Numbered from the stretch's first letter, positions 37,240 through 62,362 are shown. The stretch is DNA of 62,362 bases from a virus (IMGVR_UViG_3300009146_000015:1-62362); one strand, 5' to 3'. The notes: generated from the letters alone by a model not told the origin. A program made the numbers and translations.

Positions 37240-38382
37240 ATGAGACTGTCAGACCTACGGGACGTCCTCGTGGCGTTCATCGATGCGGGCATCGCCGTGG
37301 TGGTCGAGAGCCCACCCGGCCGCGGCAAGTCGACCTTCATGGAAGACCTGATCCAGTACTTCACCCATCGCGACGGCTACACGTGGGGCTATCAGGCCAT
37401 GTTCATGGCCACCCAGACGCCGACCGAGATGCAGGGCTACCAGTTCAAGGGTGAGCGCTGGTGGGACGACAACGGCAAGCTCGTCAAGCCCGGTACAAAG
37501 GGCGTGGAAGCGACGGCGGTGACCGAGCCGTCTCTCCCGCCGTGGATGCTGTCGAATGAAGGCAAGCCGATCTGGGCCTATCGCAGGGGCATCCTGGCGC
37601 TGGAGGAGTACGGGCAGGGCGAGGCCGACGTCAAGCGGGCGACGGCACAGCTCCTGCTCAAGGGCGAGCTTGGGCCGTTCCGCATCCCCGGCTTCCAGAC
37701 TGGCGACGGCTGGGGCATCGTCGCCCTGACCAACGGATCCGGTGACCGCTCCGGCGTGACGAAGAACTTCGACTTCGTCATCAACCGGGTGGCGTGGATC
37801 AGGCTGACCGACGACATCGTCGGCACCGAGACGGCGCTGATCAAGCGTAACGTTTTGCCGGCACTGGTGGCGTTCGCCCACCAGCATCCCGAGGTGGTGC
37901 TCAGCCCCGGCGTCCCCGAGAAGCAGGGACCGTGGATGACGCCGCGGACGCTCGAGATGACGTCGAAATTCCTCACTCAGTGGCGGAAGGTCAACGGTGA
38001 GGACAAGGTGCCGACCACGGGCGTCACCATGGAGGCGATGGCGGCAATGATCGGGCACGAGGCTGCGATGAGCGTCCTCAACTTCATCCGCCTCGATCAG
38101 GAGATGCCGACCATCGAGCAGATTGTCGCGGCGCCGGACACTTGTGCCATCCCGGACAGCCTCGATGCCCGCTACCTGATCTGCTACTCGCTGGCGCATC
38201 GCGTCACCGAGAAGAATGCCGAGAAGGTGCTGATCTATGTCGATCGGCTCGGCAAGGAATTCAGCGTCACCTTCGCCAAGGCGGCATGCGGTCGCCTGCC
38301 GATGCTGGCGCTGACCCCCTCGTTCACCACCTGGGCGAAGGGCAACTCCAGCCTGATGGCGCTGATGCAGCAGTTCAAGTGA
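37240..38382 (+). CDS. MoxR-type AAA+ ATPase (380 aa)
   Basis: Walker A ESPPGRGKST lies at residues 23-32, Walker B GILALEEYGQ at about 117-126, and a sensor-like ALTNGS follows, the layout of the MoxR/YehL group of AAA+ proteins. The C-terminal part is helical. Genes of this type are nearly always paired with a VWA-domain protein, and one lies three genes downstream (39595). Family knowledge: the pair remodels or loads cofactors into protein complexes. In a phage the target is unknown. The gene follows a palindrome and a TAGGAGA leader, and is closed by two hairpins. Confidence 0.8.
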   Translation: MRLSDLRDVLVAFIDAGIAVVVESPPGRGKSTFMEDLIQYFTHRDGYTWGYQAMFMATQTPTEMQGYQFKGERWWDDNGKLVKPGTKGVEATAVTEPSLPPWMLSNEGKPIWAYRRGILALEEYGQGEADVKRATAQLLLKGELGPFRIPGFQTGDGWGIVALTNGSGDRSGVTKNFDFVINRVAWIRLTDDIVGTETALIKRNVLPALVAFAHQHPEVVLSPGVPEKQGPWMTPRTLEMTSKFLTQWRKVNGEDKVPTTGVTMEAMAAMIGHEAAMSVLNFIRLDQEMPTIEQIVAAPDTCAIPDSLDARYLICYSLAHRVTEKNAEKVLIYVDRLGKEFSVTFAKAACGRLPMLALTPSFTTWAKGNSSLMALMQQFK

Positions 38383-38389
38383 GCGCTGA

Positions 38390-38433
38390 CACGAGCCAGG
38401 CTCGTGCAATGCAGTGGGTTTAGGCCCACTGCA
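38390..38433 (+). terminator. Two consecutive hairpins after the MoxR-type gene
   Basis: The first is CACGAGCC-A-GGCTCGTG (38390-38406), whose innermost pairs must open. The second is TGCAGTGGG-TTTAGG-CCCACTGCA (38410-38433). No T run follows. They lie between the ATPase stop and the next palindrome, as at other module boundaries. Confidence 0.5.
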
Positions 38434-38444
38434 ATCTCACCCAC

Positions 38445-38462
38445 ATTACTTTCGGAGGTAAC
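38445..38462. promoter_or_regulatory. Palindrome variant merged with ribosome-binding site
   Basis: ATTACTTTCGGAGGTAAC; the right half contains GGAGG, 6 bp before ATG 38469. Confidence 0.7.
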
Positions 38463-38468
38463 CACTTG

Positions 38469-39002
38469 ATGTACGACGATAAATTCAGCGAGAAGCGTTA
38501 CGAGATCCAGCGAGCTCGTGACCGCGATCTGGAGCGCATCGACGAGGACCACGAGATGTTCAACCGCTACCTCGACGCGTTCAACACCTACCCGATCGTG
38601 CTCTATGACCTGACTGACCAGAACCTGCTTTGGAGCAAGTACCAGATCAACCTGTCCAAGATTTTAGCGGACCGTTGCAAGGCGAAGGGTTGGCTGTTCG
38701 TCGACGCGTACCGGTATGGCAGCTTCCAGAATTCGATCCGGATGGTCGTGCCGCGCAACAGAAAGACGCCGAAGCTGGTGTCCAATCTGATGCTGCTCAA
38801 CGACGGCACCAATGCCCACGTTGGCATCTACACCAAGTCACGGTCGTGGCAATTCGATTTTGCCGGTGCAGACGGGCAGAAATTGTACGACGCCTGGATC
38901 GAAAACTGCAAACAGGATGTGGTGTCGCAGATGGTCCTCGGCTTTGGCCCGGGGGAGAATGGTGAATACAACTACGACATGGGAGAAGACCAACTACTAT
39001 GA
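38469..39002 (+). CDS. Unknown protein between ATPase and VWA genes (177 aa)
   Basis: ATG 38469 is 6 bp beyond a palindrome whose right half reads GGAGGTAAC, a near-perfect Shine-Dalgarno. The N-terminus is a charged helix (KFSEKRYEIQRARDRDLERI); the remainder looks like a folded alpha/beta domain (GWLFVDAYRYGSFQNSIRM; GTNAHVGIYTKSRSWQFDF). The stop overlaps the next start. The conserved place inside the ATPase/VWA cluster suggests it belongs to that system, possibly as a substrate adaptor. Confidence 0.55.
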   Translation: MYDDKFSEKRYEIQRARDRDLERIDEDHEMFNRYLDAFNTYPIVLYDLTDQNLLWSKYQINLSKILADRCKAKGWLFVDAYRYGSFQNSIRMVVPRNRKTPKLVSNLMLLNDGTNAHVGIYTKSRSWQFDFAGADGQKLYDAWIENCKQDVVSQMVLGFGPGENGEYNYDMGEDQLL

Positions 39003-39340
39003 TCACGATCAATATCGAACTCAGAACCATGTTCAGCATGGCGGAGAAGGATGCGGTGATGCTCAAGCTCACGCGCATTCTATGCAAGCAATTGCTGGCT
39101 CAGGCAGCTTTGATGCAGGAGAGGTTCCCCTGCAAGCTGAAGATAACCTGCGGCGAGTTCAACGAAGCCGAAGAGGAGGTGCTGCTGTTCGACGAGGACG
39201 GCAACGAGTTCGACACCGAGGTCATCGAGGCGATCGAGCGTTTCGACATCATGAACAAGGGCAAGCTCGCCCGTGTCGTCGTTAACGCGCCGAAGCGCCC
39301 CGACGTGATGGAGGATAGCGACGAGGAGGAAGCTCGATGA
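38999..39340 (+). CDS. Unknown acidic protein (113 aa)
   Basis: Coupled by ATGA on both sides. A helical start (DAVMLKLTRILCKQLLAQA) with a CKLKITCGEF strand pair is followed by an acidic middle (EEEVLLFDEDGNEFDTEV) and a very acidic tail. It belongs to the ATPase/VWA cluster by position. No family recognised. Confidence 0.5.
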   Translation: MITINIELRTMFSMAEKDAVMLKLTRILCKQLLAQAALMQERFPCKLKITCGEFNEAEEEVLLFDEDGNEFDTEVIEAIERFDIMNKGKLARVVVNAPKRPDVMEDSDEEEAR

Positions 39341-39555
39341 GAACTCTGCGCGTCAGGCAGGTTGCAACAAAGCTTGGTGTCAGCGTCCAAACTATCTGGC
39401 GCTGGCGCCACACCAACCCTGGTTTCCCGCAATCCTTCAAGCTGACGCCGGGCACCACCGTGTGGTCGGAGCAGGAGATCGACGACTGGCTGAACAATCT
39501 CACGCGGCGCGAAGCAACGCGGATGAAGCTGCCAGAGGAGGAACTCGATAACTGA
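39337..39555 (+). CDS. AlpA/excisionase-type DNA-binding protein (72 aa)
   Basis: The whole protein is a HTH_17/AlpA-like domain: LRVRQVATKLGVSVQTIWRW, then the wing with the characteristic FPQSFKLTPGTTVWSEQEI and DDWL. Proteins of this form act as small activators or excisionases. With no integrase in view an excisionase role has no partner, so transcription control is more likely. It is coupled to the previous gene by ATGA and is followed by a 17-bp palindrome. Confidence 0.7.
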   Translation: MRTLRVRQVATKLGVSVQTIWRWRHTNPGFPQSFKLTPGTTVWSEQEIDDWLNNLTRREATRMKLPEEELDN

Positions 39556-39571
39556 TTACTTCGGAAGTAAC
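39555..39571. promoter_or_regulatory. Palindrome, 3-nt spacer (perfect core)
   Basis: ATTACTTCGGAAGTAAC starts on the stop codon of the AlpA-type gene and precedes the VWA gene. Confidence 0.7.
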
Positions 39572-39594
39572 CACCCATCAACAGGAGATCTAAC

Positions 39595-40923
39595 ATGATT
39601 AAGCTATCACGCGTAAGAGCGACGCCGCAGCAGCTCAAGGACTGGGACGACACCCGCGCCGTGCTGATGTGGTACGCCCCGGCGTTCACCCACCTGTTCT
39701 ACACCCTGATGAACAAGGACGATAAATACGTCGCCGTGTTCACCACCAGCAAGCTCGTGCCGACGGCTGCCACCGATGGCACCAGCGTCATCATCAACGT
39801 CGACACCTTCTTCAAGCATCCGTTGATGGAGCGGCTGTTCATCGTCGGCCATGAGATCCTGCACAACATCCTCAACCACATTCCGCTGCTCGCCCACTGC
39901 CGGCGCACCGGGCGGGTGGTATTGGCCGACGGCAGGTCGCTGCCGTATGTCGATCTGGCGATGCAGGTGGCGCTCGATTATGTGGTCAACGCCATTCTGG
40001 TCGACGCCAAGCTCGGCACGAAGCCGGATAACGCACTGTGGGACATCAAGATCGCGACGCATCTGGAGAGCGTGCTCGACGTCTATGCCAAGCTCGTGCG
40101 GGTGGTTGGTGGCGGTGGCGGTGGCGGCGATGAGGACGACGATGGTGGTAGCGGCGGTAAGGGAGACGACGACGGCGGCGGCGGTGACCAGCCCGGTCGT
40201 GCGCCCGGCGGCTTCGATAGTCACCTTGACCCCGGCACCGTTGATGGCAAGGACCCGGTGCAGGCCGAAGCCGAGCGTAACCAAGCTGAATGGGACGTGG
40301 CGATCAAGGCGGCGATGGAGCTCGCCCAGAGCCAGGGCAAGCTGCCGGCCGGCATCAAGCGTCTGTTTGAGGAGGTGATCGAGGACAAGGTCGACTGGTC
40401 GGATATCGCCCAGTCATGGTTCGCCCGCAAGGTCGGTTCGGGTTCGTCCGACTGGCGTCACCCCGATCGCAAGCTGATCGTCCGCGACATCTGGGCTCCG
40501 GGCCGTACCGGTCACGGCGCTGAGCTGGTGGTCATCGCCTGCGACACGTCAAGCTCTATCACGCCGCGGATCCTCGATCGGTGGTTCAGTGTGCTCGGCT
40601 CGATCCTTGAGCAGGTCCGGCCGCGGCGGATCATCGTCATCTGGTGCGACGCCGAGGTCGGCAGGGTCGATGAGGTTGAGGAAGCCAGCGATCTGGAAAG
40701 CATCCGCAGAGCGGGCGCTCCCGGCGGTGGCGGCACCGACTTCCGGCCGGTGTTCAAGTACGTCTACGACCAGCGGCTGGAGCCCGACGCGCTGGTCTTC
40801 CTGACCGATGGCTACGGATATTTCCCTGAGCACGCGCCGAACTACCCGCTGTTCTGGGGGTCGATCGGGCGGGCGCCGGAGGAGTACCCGTTCGGGGAAG
40901 TGGTTGTTATCCCGGAGGACTAG
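39595..40923 (+). CDS. VWA-domain protein with HExxH metallopeptidase-like region (442 aa)
   Basis: Residues 84-95 contain VGHEILHNIL, an HExxH motif (His86, Glu87, His90). Residues about 165-200 are an Asp/Gly-rich linker with poly-Gly runs. The C-terminal domain is a von Willebrand A fold with the metal site ACDTSSS (Asp317, Ser319, Ser321) and FLTDGYG near the end. This is the putative-metallopeptidase/VWA-like domain pair (PF13203 with PF09967), the usual partner of MoxR-type ATPases such as the one at 37240. Its leader is ACAGGAGA. Confidence 0.8.
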   Translation: MIKLSRVRATPQQLKDWDDTRAVLMWYAPAFTHLFYTLMNKDDKYVAVFTTSKLVPTAATDGTSVIINVDTFFKHPLMERLFIVGHEILHNILNHIPLLAHCRRTGRVVLADGRSLPYVDLAMQVALDYVVNAILVDAKLGTKPDNALWDIKIATHLESVLDVYAKLVRVVGGGGGGGDEDDDGGSGGKGDDDGGGGDQPGRAPGGFDSHLDPGTVDGKDPVQAEAERNQAEWDVAIKAAMELAQSQGKLPAGIKRLFEEVIEDKVDWSDIAQSWFARKVGSGSSDWRHPDRKLIVRDIWAPGRTGHGAELVVIACDTSSSITPRILDRWFSVLGSILEQVRPRRIIVIWCDAEVGRVDEVEEASDLESIRRAGAPGGGGTDFRPVFKYVYDQRLEPDALVFLTDGYGYFPEHAPNYPLFWGSIGRAPEEYPFGEVVVIPED

Positions 40924-41072: not shown

Positions 41073-42941
41073 ATGGAACTCGTGTTCATGGACTTCGAGA
41101 CGTTCTACGACAAGGAGTATTCCCTACGAAAAATGACGCCGATCGAGTATATCCTCGACCAGCGGTTCGAAGCTCTTGGCGTTGCGGTAAAGTATGGCCT
41201 AGCCGGCAAATCGAAATGGGTTGGCTGGCAGGATATACCAAAACTTATCGCCGAGTTGCGTGATCGCAACGAGCGTAATCAGATCGCTATCGTCAGTCAC
41301 AATTCCCTGTTCGATGCTGCCATTTTGGCGTGGCGGTACGGCTTTGTCCCGACCAGGCTGATCGACACCCTCGGCATGGCGCGGGCGATGGTCGGCTACC
41401 GGCTCAAATCGCTGGCACTCGACAGCGTTAGCCAGCATCTCGGCTTCGGTGCCAAGTGGGGGACGCTGCAGAAGATGGTCGGCGTCGGTCGGCGGCAGCT
41501 GGCATTGAATGGAGCGCTGGCAACCGAGCTGGGCCAGTACGGCTGCGACGACAACGACAAGTGCGCCAGCATTTTCAAGACGCTGATCGTCGACTTTCCG
41601 CTCGACGAGCTGGAGGTCATGGACCTCGTCATCAAGGCGACCGTCTTGCCGCAGTTCAAGCTCGACCGGCAGGTGCTTGCCGATCATCTGGCTAAGGTCC
41701 AGCAGCAGAAGCGGGACATGCTGTCCCGCGCCGACGTCATCGATGCCGGCGCGCTGCGTTCGAACGAGAAGTTCGCGGAGTTGCTACGCCAGCTCGGTGT
41801 CGATCCGCCGATGAAAACCTCGATCACCAACCCGGAACTCAAAATTTACGCGTTTGCCAAGACCGACAGTGCGTTCATCGATCTGGCGGAGCACGACGAT
41901 CCCGCCGTGCAGGCGCTGGTCGCGGCCCGGCTCGGGCACCGCTCGACGCTCGAGGAGACCCGCAGCCAGCGGCTGATATCGATCGGCAACCTGACATGGC
42001 CGGTCGGCGATCGCTGGATGCCGGTGCCGCTCAGGTTCAGCGGAGCGCACACTCATCGTTTGTCCGGCGACATGAAGCTCAACATGCAGAACCTGCCACG
42101 CAAGGGCGGGCTGCGTGACGCGCTGGTGGCACCGGCCGGGTTCCAGGTGGTGTCGATCGACATGAGCCAGATCGAGGCTCGTATCGTGGCGTGGATCTGC
42201 GAGCAGCTTGATTTGCTGGAAGCGTTCGCTCTCGGCATTGATGTCTATTCCGAATTCGGCACCGAAGTGTTCGGCATGGAGGTCAGTAAGACCATCAATC
42301 CGAACCTCCGGTTCCTCAGCAAGACGGCGATCCTCGGGCTCGGCTACGGCATGTCGGCGCCGCGCTACGTCATCAGCGTCAAGTCGGGGTCGAAGAACCA
42401 GCTCGGCTACGTCATCGAGATCACCCTCGATACCGGCATCAAGGTGGTCGACGGCTACCGCGGCAAGTACAGGCGCATCCCGGCGACGTGGCGGACGCTG
42501 GACGGTACCGGCATTCCGACGCTGGCGCGCGGCGGCACTTACGTCGTCGGCGCGTGCGTCTTCACCAAGGGCGAGATCCGCCTGCCGAACGGGCTCAAGC
42601 TGTTCTACGACGACCTTGAAATGACCAGCGACGGTTGGCGGTTCCGCTACGGTGGCCGCTACAAGTTCGCCTACGGCGCCAAGGTGCTGGAGAACATGAC
42701 CCAGGCGCTGGCCCAGATTATCATCAAGGACTTGGCGCGGCGCGCGCATTCGAACGGCTTGCGATTTGCCCATCAGGTCCACGACGAGCTGATCTTCGTG
42801 GTCAAGAACAAACTCGTCGGCAAGACCTGCGAGCGCCTGTTGGAGCTCGCCGCCATTCGCCCCGACTGGGCTCCGGAGCTGCCGCTGGCGTCCGAGGTCA
42901 AGGCCGGAAAAAGCTATGGCGAAATGAAGCCATTACTTTGA
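41073..42941 (+). CDS. Family A DNA polymerase with 3'-5' exonuclease (622 aa)
   Basis: The N-terminus carries exonuclease motif I (MDFET, residues 6-10) and later VSHNSLFDAAI and YGCDDNDKC, fitting Exo II and III. The polymerase domain has FSGAHTHRLSGD with LNMQNLPRKGG, motif A VSIDMSQIEARI at about 358-370, motif B RFLSKTAILGLGYG at about 413-427, and motif C HQVHDELIF at about 567-575. The length is that of small phage PolA enzymes without 5' nuclease. It is the replicative polymerase, acting with the primase-helicase downstream. ATG 41073 follows AAGGAG. Confidence 0.92.
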   Translation: MELVFMDFETFYDKEYSLRKMTPIEYILDQRFEALGVAVKYGLAGKSKWVGWQDIPKLIAELRDRNERNQIAIVSHNSLFDAAILAWRYGFVPTRLIDTLGMARAMVGYRLKSLALDSVSQHLGFGAKWGTLQKMVGVGRRQLALNGALATELGQYGCDDNDKCASIFKTLIVDFPLDELEVMDLVIKATVLPQFKLDRQVLADHLAKVQQQKRDMLSRADVIDAGALRSNEKFAELLRQLGVDPPMKTSITNPELKIYAFAKTDSAFIDLAEHDDPAVQALVAARLGHRSTLEETRSQRLISIGNLTWPVGDRWMPVPLRFSGAHTHRLSGDMKLNMQNLPRKGGLRDALVAPAGFQVVSIDMSQIEARIVAWICEQLDLLEAFALGIDVYSEFGTEVFGMEVSKTINPNLRFLSKTAILGLGYGMSAPRYVISVKSGSKNQLGYVIEITLDTGIKVVDGYRGKYRRIPATWRTLDGTGIPTLARGGTYVVGACVFTKGEIRLPNGLKLFYDDLEMTSDGWRFRYGGRYKFAYGAKVLENMTQALAQIIIKDLARRAHSNGLRFAHQVHDELIFVVKNKLVGKTCERLLELAAIRPDWAPELPLASEVKAGKSYGEMKPLL

Positions 42942-58684: not shown

Positions 58685-61600
58685 TCACCGGGCGTTGTAG
58701 ACGCCTTGAGCCCTCTCTAGCACATAACGGTTGGCCCGGGTCGGCCGAACACCGCTTTCCATCTCCTCAATTTCCGACGACCGCCGGCTGGTGTAGGCCC
58801 TCAACGCAGCATTAGTCAGCTGTGCATCCTTCGGCTTACCGCGATTGAAGCGCTCGATCCGGCCTCGCATGCGGACACGCTCTCTGGATGAAGCGTCAGC
58901 CCATGCCCGCTGCAGCTCTCCCCGCTCCTTGTTGATGGCAGTCTGGCTGGCGTAGAACTGCGCCTTGAGATCCTGATCCTCGGCCTCGCGTTCCGGTGTG
59001 GCACCGAGCACCCGGATGAACATCTCCGAGAACGAATAGGGATCCATCGACGGGCGACCGGTGCGGGTCTCCTTGCCGAACGCACCAACGTCAACGGCTT
59101 TAATCAGATCCTTCAGCGCCTTGACCGGCGCCAGTTTCGGCAGCGCTGCCGAATAGTCACCGTCGATCAGCTCCCGTGCCCCTTGCCCGTAGTCGTAAAG
59201 CATCATCCCGGGCGCGCCGATCAGCATGTCCTGCAGCCAATTCTTGACGTCCTCGGGATCGCCGGAAGTCGGCTCGCGGGCAAGGAACATGTCGGCCATG
59301 CCGACGCGCTGCGACATGTCGAACGCCAGCCCGAACGGCAGGGCGCGGGTGATGCCACGGGTGACGACTTCACCCAGGTCGGGCCCTAGCAGGTCCGCTG
59401 CCAGTTCACGTTCGGCATTCTCGAAGTCCTGCCAGCTGAACGGCACGCCCAGCATCTGCAGTCCGAGGACCATCGCCTTGATCGGCTCTGTCGGCAGCCC
59501 GAGCGTGCCGGCCATCAGAGTGTGAGTGGCGGCGATATAGGCCAGCGACTTCAGCGCCTCGGCGCGATCGCCGGGGCTCTCGTTGCGCCACGCCCGGCCA
59601 ATCTGTTGACCGAGCAGCTGGTACATGGCGTGACCGAAGCGCTTGAACTGGAACGTCACCTTGAGCAGCGGGTGATTGAACAGTCGGGGTGCGTTAACCT
59701 CCGAATAATTGAAGTTGGTCATGTTGTTGGTGTCGTCGGCGTACTGCAGCGCGGCTTCGTGGTTGCCGCCATTGGCCGCGTACTCGAGCCGATATGCGGC
59801 GAGCAGGACGGCAGCGCGGTTGATCGCCTCGGCCGACGACGGCATCTGCCGGGTGATCTGCTCCAGCCAGTTGAGCGCGGTATCGGTTGCTTCCAGCGAT
59901 TTCGCAGCGACGCCACCCTGCGGCCGGCGCAGCCGCTGCCGTTTGGAAATCTCCAGTCCGCCGCGGAAGTCGAGGAACTGGAAGACCTCAGCCTCGCGTT
60001 CGAGTATACCCGCGCGACTGGTTAGGTCCTCGATGAAGGTGGCGCTTTCGGCATCCGGATTTTTCGCCTTCTTCCACGTCTCAACGGCCCCACGCTTGGC
60101 CATGTCGAGCGCGCCAATATCCTTGTAAGCCTTGCCAAACGCCCGCACCGTCGGCGCTACCTTGTGGCGAGCAGCAACCACCGGCATCGACACCATGCTG
60201 ACCTGCATCAGGTTCATGATGGTGTACATCGGCGAGCCGAGCCGAGCGACGAACGAAGCGGTAAGGATGCGGGATACGAATGGCGAGTACCACTGGCTGT
60301 CGTGGACAAAGCCGTTGCCCTTGTCGACGCGCTTGACGACTTCGTTCCAGATCGCCCGCCGCCCGAGCGCCCCGGCACGATGACCAGCGTCGATCGACTG
60401 CTGGCCGTCACGCATGACCTGGTTGAGCTCCTGCGCGTGCTCCAGACGGGCGAGGTAGCTGGCCGTACTGTCAGCGTAGTCGATCATCGCCCGGGTGATA
60501 TCCAGCGACGCGCCGCTGACGCTGCGGCGTGCGATCCGGCGCTTGTGGACGCGGGTCGAGCTCATCATCTGCAGCCCGAACTCCTGCGCCGCCAGACGGA
60601 GCTGGTTCTGCATCTCCTTGGGCATATCCTTGTAGCCCTGCCGCTTCTCCAGCGACTTGATCATCAGGCTGACGTCGGCAGACGAGATGTCGATGCCGCG
60701 GTCGCCGGGCGACCACTGGCGCTCCTGCACACCCTCGACGCTCTCAACGTCGGGGTCACTCTCCAGCTCATGGGCTTCCCGGAGCGCCGTCGCCTTGTCA
60801 TCGAAGAACTCGACGTGGTCCTCCTGCACCTCGGTGCGGAACACCCGGACAGCGCCGGGGTCCTTCATCGTGATCTTGACGCGGCTGCCCGGTGCCTCGC
60901 TGTCGTCAGGCAGAATGTCCCAGCTCTCGCCGGTTTTCTCGTCGACGGTGGTGCCGCTGACCCAGGCTTTTTCCTTGGTCGCAGCGGCGTATTCCATCGC
61001 CCGCTCGCGGGCGTCCTTGCCGCGGAACTCGTAGACGTTGGTGGTACCCTCCTTGAGCGTCCCCTTGAGCCGGGCAGCGGGCGCGGCAACCTTGAGCTTG
61101 GCCCGCACCACCCACTTGCCGCGCCGCATCAGCGGGAAGTACGGCCCGAGCATATGGTAGAGCTCCTTGGCCCGGACGATCCGGGTCAAAAGCTCGGGGT
61201 TGCCCTTGAACAGCGCCTTGTCGGCGTCGGTCATCTCCTTGCCGAGGATGCGATCGACCAGCCCCTCGTCGATATCCTTAGCGTCGATCTCGCCGCGGAA
61301 GCCCTCGACCAGCATGTTGTGCACCAGAAGGTGCGACATCAGGAACTGGCGCTCGCGCATGAAGTCATGCAGGTCGTGGCGGAGCTCGTCGAGATACGGC
61401 GCTGCGTCGATAATCTCGGCATACTCGCGCGACAGCTCGGCATACTTGGCCCGCGCCTGCACCCCCTTCAGCGTCGGATTGCCAACCGGGTCCTTGCCAA
61501 GATGCGTCTGGGCGGCAAGCGGCTGGTCGACGAAGACGTTGGCGTTGGTCTCATCGTTGATCAGCTGGGCGAACCGCGACCACATCTCACGCCCGGCCCG

Positions 61601-62362
61601 CTTCTCGGCATGCACCATGCGGTCGATCAGCGCCTCGGCCATCTTCTGATTACGATTGGTCTGCCGGATGATGTTGGTCAGGATCCGGTAAACCCGCCGC
61701 ACCGGGTTGTCCTTGCTTCTCCAGTAGCGGTCGGCAGTGCGGGCGAGCTGATCGAGCCCCGCCAGCATCAGCGCCTTGGGCACCCGCATCTGCTCCTGCC
61801 GGCCCTCGCCCGTGTAGCTCTCGTAGATATCGCGAGTGACGCGCCTCGCGGTCTCACGTGGTGAAATCTTAGCGTGGACAGTGACCTCGCTGTCCCGCGC
61901 TGCCGCTGCCGCCGTCTCCGCTTTGGCGGTCAGGCGTTCGGTGGCATGCATCACCGCGTCGAGCACCGACAGATCGTTGCCAAGCTTGCCGATGGTCTTA
62001 CTTACGAAAGTAACAAATGCCTGCCACGCGTCCGCCAGCGTGCCGCGCTTGATCCCCAGCTGCCGTGCCATCCGCTTCGACAGCGGGGTGCCGGCAAGCA
62101 GCTCCTGGAATGCCGGGTTGCTCATCGCTTCGGCGACGAACTCGAACACGTCGTTGAAGCCGTAGTGCTTGGACGGATCGACGATGCCGTGGTGGCGGAT
62201 AACGTCGCCCATCAGGGTCTCAAGATAGGCCCGCAGGCGCGGATCGCGCTTGATCCCGGCGATTGTCGCTCCGTGCACGAACTCGTGGAGGATGCTCTCG
62301 GTGACCGCCTCGACATCCACAAAAAACAAAAGACAGAGCAGCAACAACAAAAACACACCAGA
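58685..62362 (-). CDS. Giant polyvalent virion protein, C-terminal part with zincin and LPD38-like domains (about 1200 aa)
   Basis: The frame is open from the right edge; GTG 62356 lies in an odd T/G-rich stretch and is probably not a true start. ILHEFVHGAT at 62267-62296 is an HExxH zinc-protease-like helix, followed by NDVFEFVAEAMSNPAF, a conserved companion segment. The C-terminal 500 residues, with NAPRLFNHPLLKVTFQFK and RFGHAMYQLLGQQIG, are the large-polyvalent-protein-associated domain 38 pattern. Proteins of this kind are virion components injected with DNA. I infer that this is the rest of the gene that starts at 4666. A palindrome copy is embedded at 61997. Confidence 0.75.
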   Translation of the reverse strand, partial: SGVFLLLLLCLLFFVDVEAVTESILHEFVHGATIAGIKRDPRLRAYLETLMGDVIRHHGIVDPSKHYGFNDVFEFVAEAMSNPAFQELLAGTPLSKRMARQLGIKRGTLADAWQAFVTFVSKTIGKLGNDLSVLDAVMHATERLTAKAETAAAAARDSEVTVHAKISPRETARRVTRDIYESYTGEGRQEQMRVPKALMLAGLDQLARTADRYWRSKDNPVRRVYRILTNIIRQTNRNQKMAEALIDRMVHAEKRAGREMWSRFAQLINDETNANVFVDQPLAAQTHLGKDPVGNPTLKGVQARAKYAELSREYAEIIDAAPYLDELRHDLHDFMRERQFLMSHLLVHNMLVEGFRGEIDAKDIDEGLVDRILGKEMTDADKALFKGNPELLTRIVRAKELYHMLGPYFPLMRRGKWVVRAKLKVAAPAARLKGTLKEGTTNVYEFRGKDARERAMEYAAATKEKAWVSGTTVDEKTGESWDILPDDSEAPGSRVKITMKDPGAVRVFRTEVQEDHVEFFDDKATALREAHELESDPDVESVEGVQERQWSPGDRGIDISSADVSLMIKSLEKRQGYKDMPKEMQNQLRLAAQEFGLQMMSSTRVHKRRIARRSVSGASLDITRAMIDYADSTASYLARLEHAQELNQVMRDGQQSIDAGHRAGALGRRAIWNEVVKRVDKGNGFVHDSQWYSPFVSRILTASFVARLGSPMYTIMNLMQVSMVSMPVVAARHKVAPTVRAFGKAYKDIGALDMAKRGAVETWKKAKNPDAESATFIEDLTSRAGILEREAEVFQFLDFRGGLEISKRQRLRRPQGGVAAKSLEATDTALNWLEQITRQMPSSAEAINRAAVLLAAYRLEYAANGGNHEAALQYADDTNNMTNFNYSEVNAPRLFNHPLLKVTFQFKRFGHAMYQLLGQQIGRAWRNESPGDRAEALKSLAYIAATHTLMAGTLGLPTEPIKAMVLGLQMLGVPFSWQDFENAERELAADLLGPDLGEVVTRGITRALPFGLAFDMSQRVGMADMFLAREPTSGDPEDVKNWLQDMLIGAPGMMLYDYGQGARELIDGDYSAALPKLAPVKALKDLIKAVDVGAFGKETRTGRPSMDPYSFSEMFIRVLGATPEREAEDQDLKAQFYASQTAINKERGELQRAWADASSRERVRMRGRIERFNRGKPKDAQLTNAALRAYTSRRSSEIEEMESGVRPTRANRYVLERAQGVYNAR
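61997..62014. promoter_or_regulatory. Palindrome (perfect core) inside the giant polyvalent gene
   Basis: CTTACTTACGAAAGTAAC encodes FVSKT on the minus strand. Confidence 0.65.
62282..62305. repeat. 24-bp edge repeat, right copy
   Basis: This copy has the same 24 bases as 173-196. To its left the coding sequence continues as a normal zincin domain; to its right the window ends in a 57-bp stretch that turns into A/C-rich low complexity. Confidence 0.7.
62319..62362. other. Low-complexity right edge
   Basis: The last 44 bases are A/C-rich (AAAAAACAAAAGACAGAGC and CAACAACAAAAACACACC) in a genome that is otherwise GC-rich. This is unlike any other coding region here and may be an assembly or read-end artefact. 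Confidence 0.5.

Follow-up and report, generated by a model that had tools for sequence, protein, structure and literature searches.

A phage MoxR-type ATPase and VWA protein of the N4 gp24/gp25 kind, accompanied by a small third protein in one phage clade

Results

The locus

The window, by which we mean the whole stretch of 62,362 nucleotides analysed here, is an entire IMG/VR virus record with a T7-like virion gene set. The phage is podovirus-like; its minus strand carries the head, portal and internal virion protein genes, its plus strand the early and replication genes. Its head and portal PHROGs are T7-like, and a scan of the large ORFs for the mark of N4-like phages (Schitoviridae), the giant virion RNA polymerase and RNAP1/2, gave no RNA polymerase match. 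Among isolates, Rhizobium phage RHph_TM27A is nearest. The ORF at the right edge of the window (58685-62356, minus strand) matches very large phage proteins in their C-terminal half, namely phrog_37402 (2639 aa) and the DarB-like antirestriction family phrog_10089.

Five ORFs that a sequence-only reading had placed at 37240-40923 were confirmed there, with three small genes lying between the ATPase gene (37240-38382) and the VWA gene (39595-40923). The features are as follows.

37240..38382, plus strand: MoxR-like AAA+ ATPase, 380 aa, N4 gp24 family (phrog_1297, named "ATPase", E=1.4e-45)
37309..37332, plus strand: Walker A SPPGRGKS, residues 24-31 of the ATPase
37603..37608, plus strand: Walker B acidic pair E122-E123 of the ATPase (E123 invariant in 19/19)
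38469..39002, plus strand: 178-aa accessory protein (homologues in L005, L006, L008, L010, L011, L053 and the nearest relative)
38999..39340, plus strand: SP, the small third component, 113 aa, a new family (between ATPase and VWA genes in 29/29 contigs)
39155..39157, plus strand: E53 of the window SP, at a predicted hairpin tip (D in the other 28 family members)
39337..39555, plus strand: AlpA/excisionase-type HTH protein, 72 aa (PF05930, E=1.7e-9)
39595..40923, plus strand: metallopeptidase-like (PF13203) and VWA (PF09967) protein, 442 aa, N4 gp25 family
39850..39864, plus strand: HExxH, residues 86-90 of the VWA protein (invariant in 20/20)
40111..40200, plus strand: Gly/Asp-rich disordered linker at the junction of the metallopeptidase-like and VWA domains, residues 173-202 (pLDDT <50)
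40543..40557, plus strand: MIDAS DxSxS, residues 317-321 of the VWA protein (invariant in 20/20)
40735-40737 and 40807-40809, plus strand: MIDAS-completing residues T381 and D405
41073..42941, plus strand: family-A DNA polymerase, PolA (PF00476; start set by alignment with relatives)

ORFs, phrog_1297, PF13203/PF09967 and motifs all agree with the earlier description of a MoxR-type AAA+ protein and a VWA protein with an HExxH site around small genes, and the AlpA-type DNA-binding protein is present as well. The genes had also been described as all tightly coupled. This holds for the 178-aa and SP genes and for the SP and AlpA genes, which overlap by ATGA, but not for the outer junctions, with gaps of 83 bp between the ATPase and 178-aa genes and 39 bp between the AlpA and VWA genes. 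For the 178-aa gene, ATG at 38469 is a more likely start than TTG at 38466. Compared with the nearest relative, pN/pS was 0.32-0.53 for the ATPase, 178-aa, SP, VWA and PolA genes; because this indicates purifying selection, we consider these genes to be real.

In the window the genes run ATPase-SP-VWA-PolA, with a RecB-like exonuclease and a helicase after them, and the family-A DNA polymerase comes next after the VWA gene in all loci of sufficient length. In some relatives PolA appears to be split into at least 2 neighbouring ORFs (L019:6900-8923, L020:2931-4954, L005:15107-17000), with a frameshift, a split gene or an intervening element as possible causes.

The ATPase and the VWA protein

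The ATPase shares 34% identity with its counterpart in RHph_TM27A and 23-24% with N4-like gp24, which it matches over 94-97% of the length by tblastn. Walker A, E123, sensor-1 N165, R183 and sensor-2 R236 vary little or not at all across 19 homologues, and G66 and R236 are invariant among the homologues aligned. AAA_5 (dynein-related) matches were found in 3 of the 19 family members, and the best PDB match of the ATPase profile is Midasin. None of the MoxR-specific Pfam or NCBIfam models was matched by the ATPase. Its AAA+ core, MoxR-like motifs and dynein/Midasin-type relatives suggest, with moderate confidence, that it belongs to the MoxR AAA+ clade.

The VWA protein matches PF13203 (E=2.5e-16) and PF09967 (E=8.2e-21), and is 46% identical to its RHph_TM27A counterpart. 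A profile built without N4 sequences retrieved N4 gp25 (prob 99.7, E=6e-27). The MIDAS pattern DxSxS...T...(S/T)DG is complete, TDG being residues 404-406. HExxH, D128, N132 and the MIDAS residues D317, S319, S321, T381 and D405 are identical in all 20 homologues, N4-like gp25 included. The structural model (pLDDT 82) predicts an N-terminal helical domain with HExxH on helix 77-92 and the invariant D128 and N132 on a second helix (120-138), then, after the disordered linker, a C-terminal VWA fold. Its PDB matches include the Midasin MIDAS domain (8ql1) and NorD (9qhe), among many VWA folds.

PHROGs files this protein in phrog_1314, under the name "HNH endonuclease". We rejected this name: Pfam detects only the putative metallopeptidase and VWA domains, and no HNH domain. 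Many phage records give the same label to metallopeptidase/VWA proteins of the gp25 type, for which it is misleading.

The same pair in other phages

By sequence, the pair is that of N4 gp24 and gp25 (phrog_1297 and phrog_1314), and hence of an already known kind: ATPase and VWA-metallopeptidase are homologous, in the same order, with all motifs kept. In N4-like phages gp24 and gp25 are core genes, expressed as middle genes, of unknown function (PMC4193335, PMC2784036), and we found no report in the literature on what they do. For Bacillus phage 0305phi8-36, a MoxR-type two-subunit chaperonin was proposed from gene adjacency (PMC2147016).

An ATPase gene followed by a VWA gene on the same strand, within about 3 kb, was present in 10 of the 10 phages inspected (N4, G7C, DSS3phi2, KPP21, Presley, Thermus phiFa, PA5oct, Phosso, Salmonella 7t3 and Vibrio 2.275.O), and in phage G the two genes are 4.4 kb apart. 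The pair ranges from 60-kb podophages to 470-kb jumbo phages (the 469-kb Phosso). A scan of genome contigs with the VWA alignment returned no bacterial or prophage copies. The strict gene adjacency of the N4 pair is absent from the window, where three genes intervene; small insertions are also seen in G7C, KPP21, Presley, phiFa and PA5oct, and strict adjacency is therefore no defining trait of the pair. That the ATPase and VWA protein act together, as had been suggested, is thus supported by neighbouring genes in the same order and by catalytic and MIDAS residues kept in very distant phages.

The sequence-only reading had listed a host polymerase or a host defence complex among the possible targets, and the presence of the pair, which is no structural module, in very different phages and hosts would fit a machine that disarms such a host complex. 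However, PADLOC gave no convincing match for the ATPase, SP or VWA protein, the active-site residues show no diversification, and core status together with a position in the replication module better fits a house-keeping phage role. We consider a counter-defence or host takeover function quite improbable.

SP, a constant third component

Between the pair, the window differs from N4: its two genes are separated by about 1.2 kb containing the SP gene, and PolA follows directly, whereas N4 has no detectable SP. SP has no match in Pfam or PHROGs. A four-sequence VWA alignment, run against viral contigs, yielded 21 loci, and all those spanning the interval have an SP-related ORF between ATPase and VWA genes. 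A leave-one-out profile recovered the window SP with E=2.1e-9 among 4128 ORFs. Conversely, a search of 2.9 million viral contigs with SP only gave 22 loci, all with the ATPase just upstream, and with the VWA gene just downstream wherever the contig reaches that far; in this search SP was never found without its neighbours. The SP scan was pattern-based and used a subset alignment, and may miss distant SPs.

Altogether, 29 distinct contigs span the interval, the window and RHph_TM27A counted in. RHph_TM27A (EVB29_051-055) has the ATPase, an SP homologue (EVB29_054), the VWA protein and PolA in the window's order; its other two linkers are unrelated and it lacks AlpA. In L043 the ORF called as SP is short, without the family's N-terminal part. 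In the nearest relative (the contig of L004), SP lies at the contig edge and is closer to the family consensus than the window SP. Thus three genes, two of them with intact active-site residues, are obligately linked in this phage clade.

HMM searches of ten other neighbourhoods did not find SP near gp24/gp25 of N4-like and jumbo phages. As judged from these profile searches and the pattern-based scans, SP appears confined to this phage clade, with the reservation that short fast-evolving proteins could be missed elsewhere. Weak tblastn matches in Grimontviridae phages were dropped, as they fall inside a 2.3-kb gene near terminase and capsid genes. In the PDB, MADS-box-like matches to SP (E>1) were ignored. 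The viral model library contains one good match (E=1e-4, 73 aa), which is probably the Rhizobium phage homologue.

SP family members are about 65-110 aa long, with a predicted long helix and beta-hairpin. The model (pLDDT 81, pTM 0.56) predicts in addition an N-terminal segment without partner strand, and it has no convincing match among PDB folds. At alignment position 54, which ends strand 50-54 ahead of strand 58-62, where the hairpin tip is predicted, 28 of the 29 sequences have D, and the window has E. Among the columns examined, only L39, a buried-looking leucine, rivals its chemical constancy.

These data change the description of the locus. The three intervening genes had been called unknown linkers, a label that no longer fits: SP is a constant third component, the 178-aa protein is an accessory of restricted lineage distribution, and AlpA was seen in the window only. 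A neighbourhood survey of the five-gene set had been proposed, with failure to be conserved together counting against it; the survey finds the triad conserved and the five-gene set not. The ATPase-SP-VWA genes are therefore the unit, and the five genes are not. What is new here is this anatomy of the linker region, with SP as a third part that travels with the pair in all 29 checkable relatives.

The 178-aa protein, AlpA and other neighbours

Homologues of the 178-aa protein occur in about a quarter of the relatives and are missing from the rest, the pattern of a lineage-limited accessory. A search of seven related contigs, among them that of the nearest relative G001, which ends inside the cluster, found no AlpA; being seen in the window only, it was rejected as a machine part and is probably incidental to the cluster. 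In the larger subgroup of relatives (e.g. L012-L024), a second small family (FRSFAERY...W...AK..Y) lies between SP and VWA. In most relatives (26 loci), the gene for a conserved protein of about 240 aa precedes the ATPase gene (e.g. L013:6620-7327), at a median of about 3.8 kb upstream of VWA; it was not found in the window.

Comparison with known systems

NorQ/NorD and RavA/ViaA each combine an AAA+ ring with a VWA partner, and presumably work in a like manner. In NorQD, the AAA+ ring takes hold of the VWA domain, a finger of which reaches into the pore, and a NorD linker is remodelled by the motor (PMC13036017). The window differs from both in that its VWA partner bears a metallopeptidase-like domain and its ATPase no LARA-like extension. 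The earlier comparison with RavA-ViaA may stand at the level of how such a pair works, but matches are restricted to the AAA+ core and about 100 VWA residues. Membership of that family was rejected: only RavA 36-264 and ViaA 303-405 align, weakly, LARA and the ViaA N-terminal domain are unmatched, and the window ATPase matches the RavA AAA+ core no better than it does Lon. The CobS/CobT cobaltochelatase was also rejected, with no CobS or CobT Pfam domain matching.

Midasin (Rea1/Mdn1), with its ligands Ytm1 and Rsa4, likewise has AAA+ and MIDAS. There, the ligand contributes the glutamate that completes the MIDAS metal site, and this residue is essential for binding (PMC6624252); for the window, a grip through an acidic residue of the ligand is only proposed here. 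Midasin is a single 5000-residue chain and its ligands have UBL domains, whereas no UBL match was found for SP. Bacterial MoxR-vWA ternary conflict systems (PMC7159879) consist, as in the window, of MoxR, vWA and one third protein. In the window, by contrast, the vWA protein carries no effector domain, there is no VMAP or iSTAND, and the third protein is the small SP.

A possible remodelling machine

We tentatively propose, at somewhat less than an even chance, that the three proteins form a MoxR/VWA remodelling machine in which SP serves the VWA MIDAS site as its cognate ligand or adaptor, and which acts on phage replication or expression complexes. A hexamer of the ATPase would bind the VWA protein, and ATP hydrolysis would pull or twist it, the force reaching the metal-binding HExxH domain via the flexible Gly-rich linker. 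An acidic residue of SP would provide the sixth ligand of the MIDAS metal, a role that the UBL domains of Ytm1 and Rsa4 have on Midasin, and SP may be an adaptor or handle for gripping a client, or the client itself. If timing follows N4, the machine would act in mid-infection.

The acidic residue at position 54 in 29/29 sequences is only suggestive of such a role for SP. Against SP as a necessary part, N4-like and jumbo phages have no detectable SP, so that there the pair can apparently work without it, or has a partner that has gone unrecognised. A more specific version, which we regard as doubtful, makes the ~80-residue SP a dedicated acidic-tip MIDAS ligand within a three-part MoxR-SP-VWA remodeller, as the viral counterpart of the Midasin/UBL grip, dismantling or maturing the phage replisome or a host complex. 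The analogy with UBL domains would be functional, not structural, because model confidence is moderate and PDB gave no fold match.

The phage's own replication or expression complexes would be the likeliest clients because the triad opens the replication module with PolA always next, and the exonuclease and helicase genes that follow point to the replication apparatus. However, PolA may lie next to the triad only because the replication module is conserved; N4 itself has PolA about 10 kb away from the pair.

SP might instead be a substrate: driven by ATP, the VWA protein would act as a metallopeptidase or maturase, processing SP or an SP-bound phage protein or loading it with metal. The invariance of HExxH, D128 and N132 in 20/20 homologues and the Pfam name "putative metallopeptidase" speak for this, as does the finding that a zincin and a small, diverging precursor protein are linked to some of the MoxR-vWA ternary systems of bacteria (PMC7159879). 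Yet the whole SP core is conserved, without the split into variable and constant parts that cleavage would suggest, and other VWA partners such as NorD work by metal insertion and not proteolysis. We find this reading unlikely.

Co-conservation of ATPase, SP and VWA protein is not interaction, and the locus could be a plain house-keeping operon whose three products form no physical complex, synteny reflecting shared timing only. Beyond the acidic tip there is no sequence hint of an SP interaction, and correlations between distance matrices are moderate for SP (rho 0.54 with VWA, 0.54-0.58 with its partners; 0.79 for ATPase-VWA). Nevertheless, SP stays between ATPase and VWA genes in 29/29 contigs while the distances to PolA and the exonuclease differ between loci and other neighbouring genes are present in some and absent from others, and we would give the operon reading only a slim chance. 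For the remodelling machine, which we prefer, SP with its one conserved acidic tip offers a concrete experimental handle on a pair that belongs to the small core gene set of N4-like phages.

A palindrome at gene boundaries

About 30 copies of a 17-18 bp palindrome, GTTACTT-N3/4-AAGTAAC, are present in the window, mostly at gene boundaries, including those around the cluster (e.g. 3092, 12746, 18110, 31759, 37207, 38445, 39555, 40923, 42932, 48718, 58218). With a 4-base spacer there are 26 sites, against 0.03 expected. In related phages the palindrome has other arms, with changes that compensate each other (TTACCT..AGGTAA, TTACCG..CGGTAA). An RNA hairpin was considered, a reading that lost support once A.C mismatches were also counted: departures from symmetry are G.T and A.C equally often (37 vs 44), and because of this a DNA dyad, perhaps an operator, is favoured.
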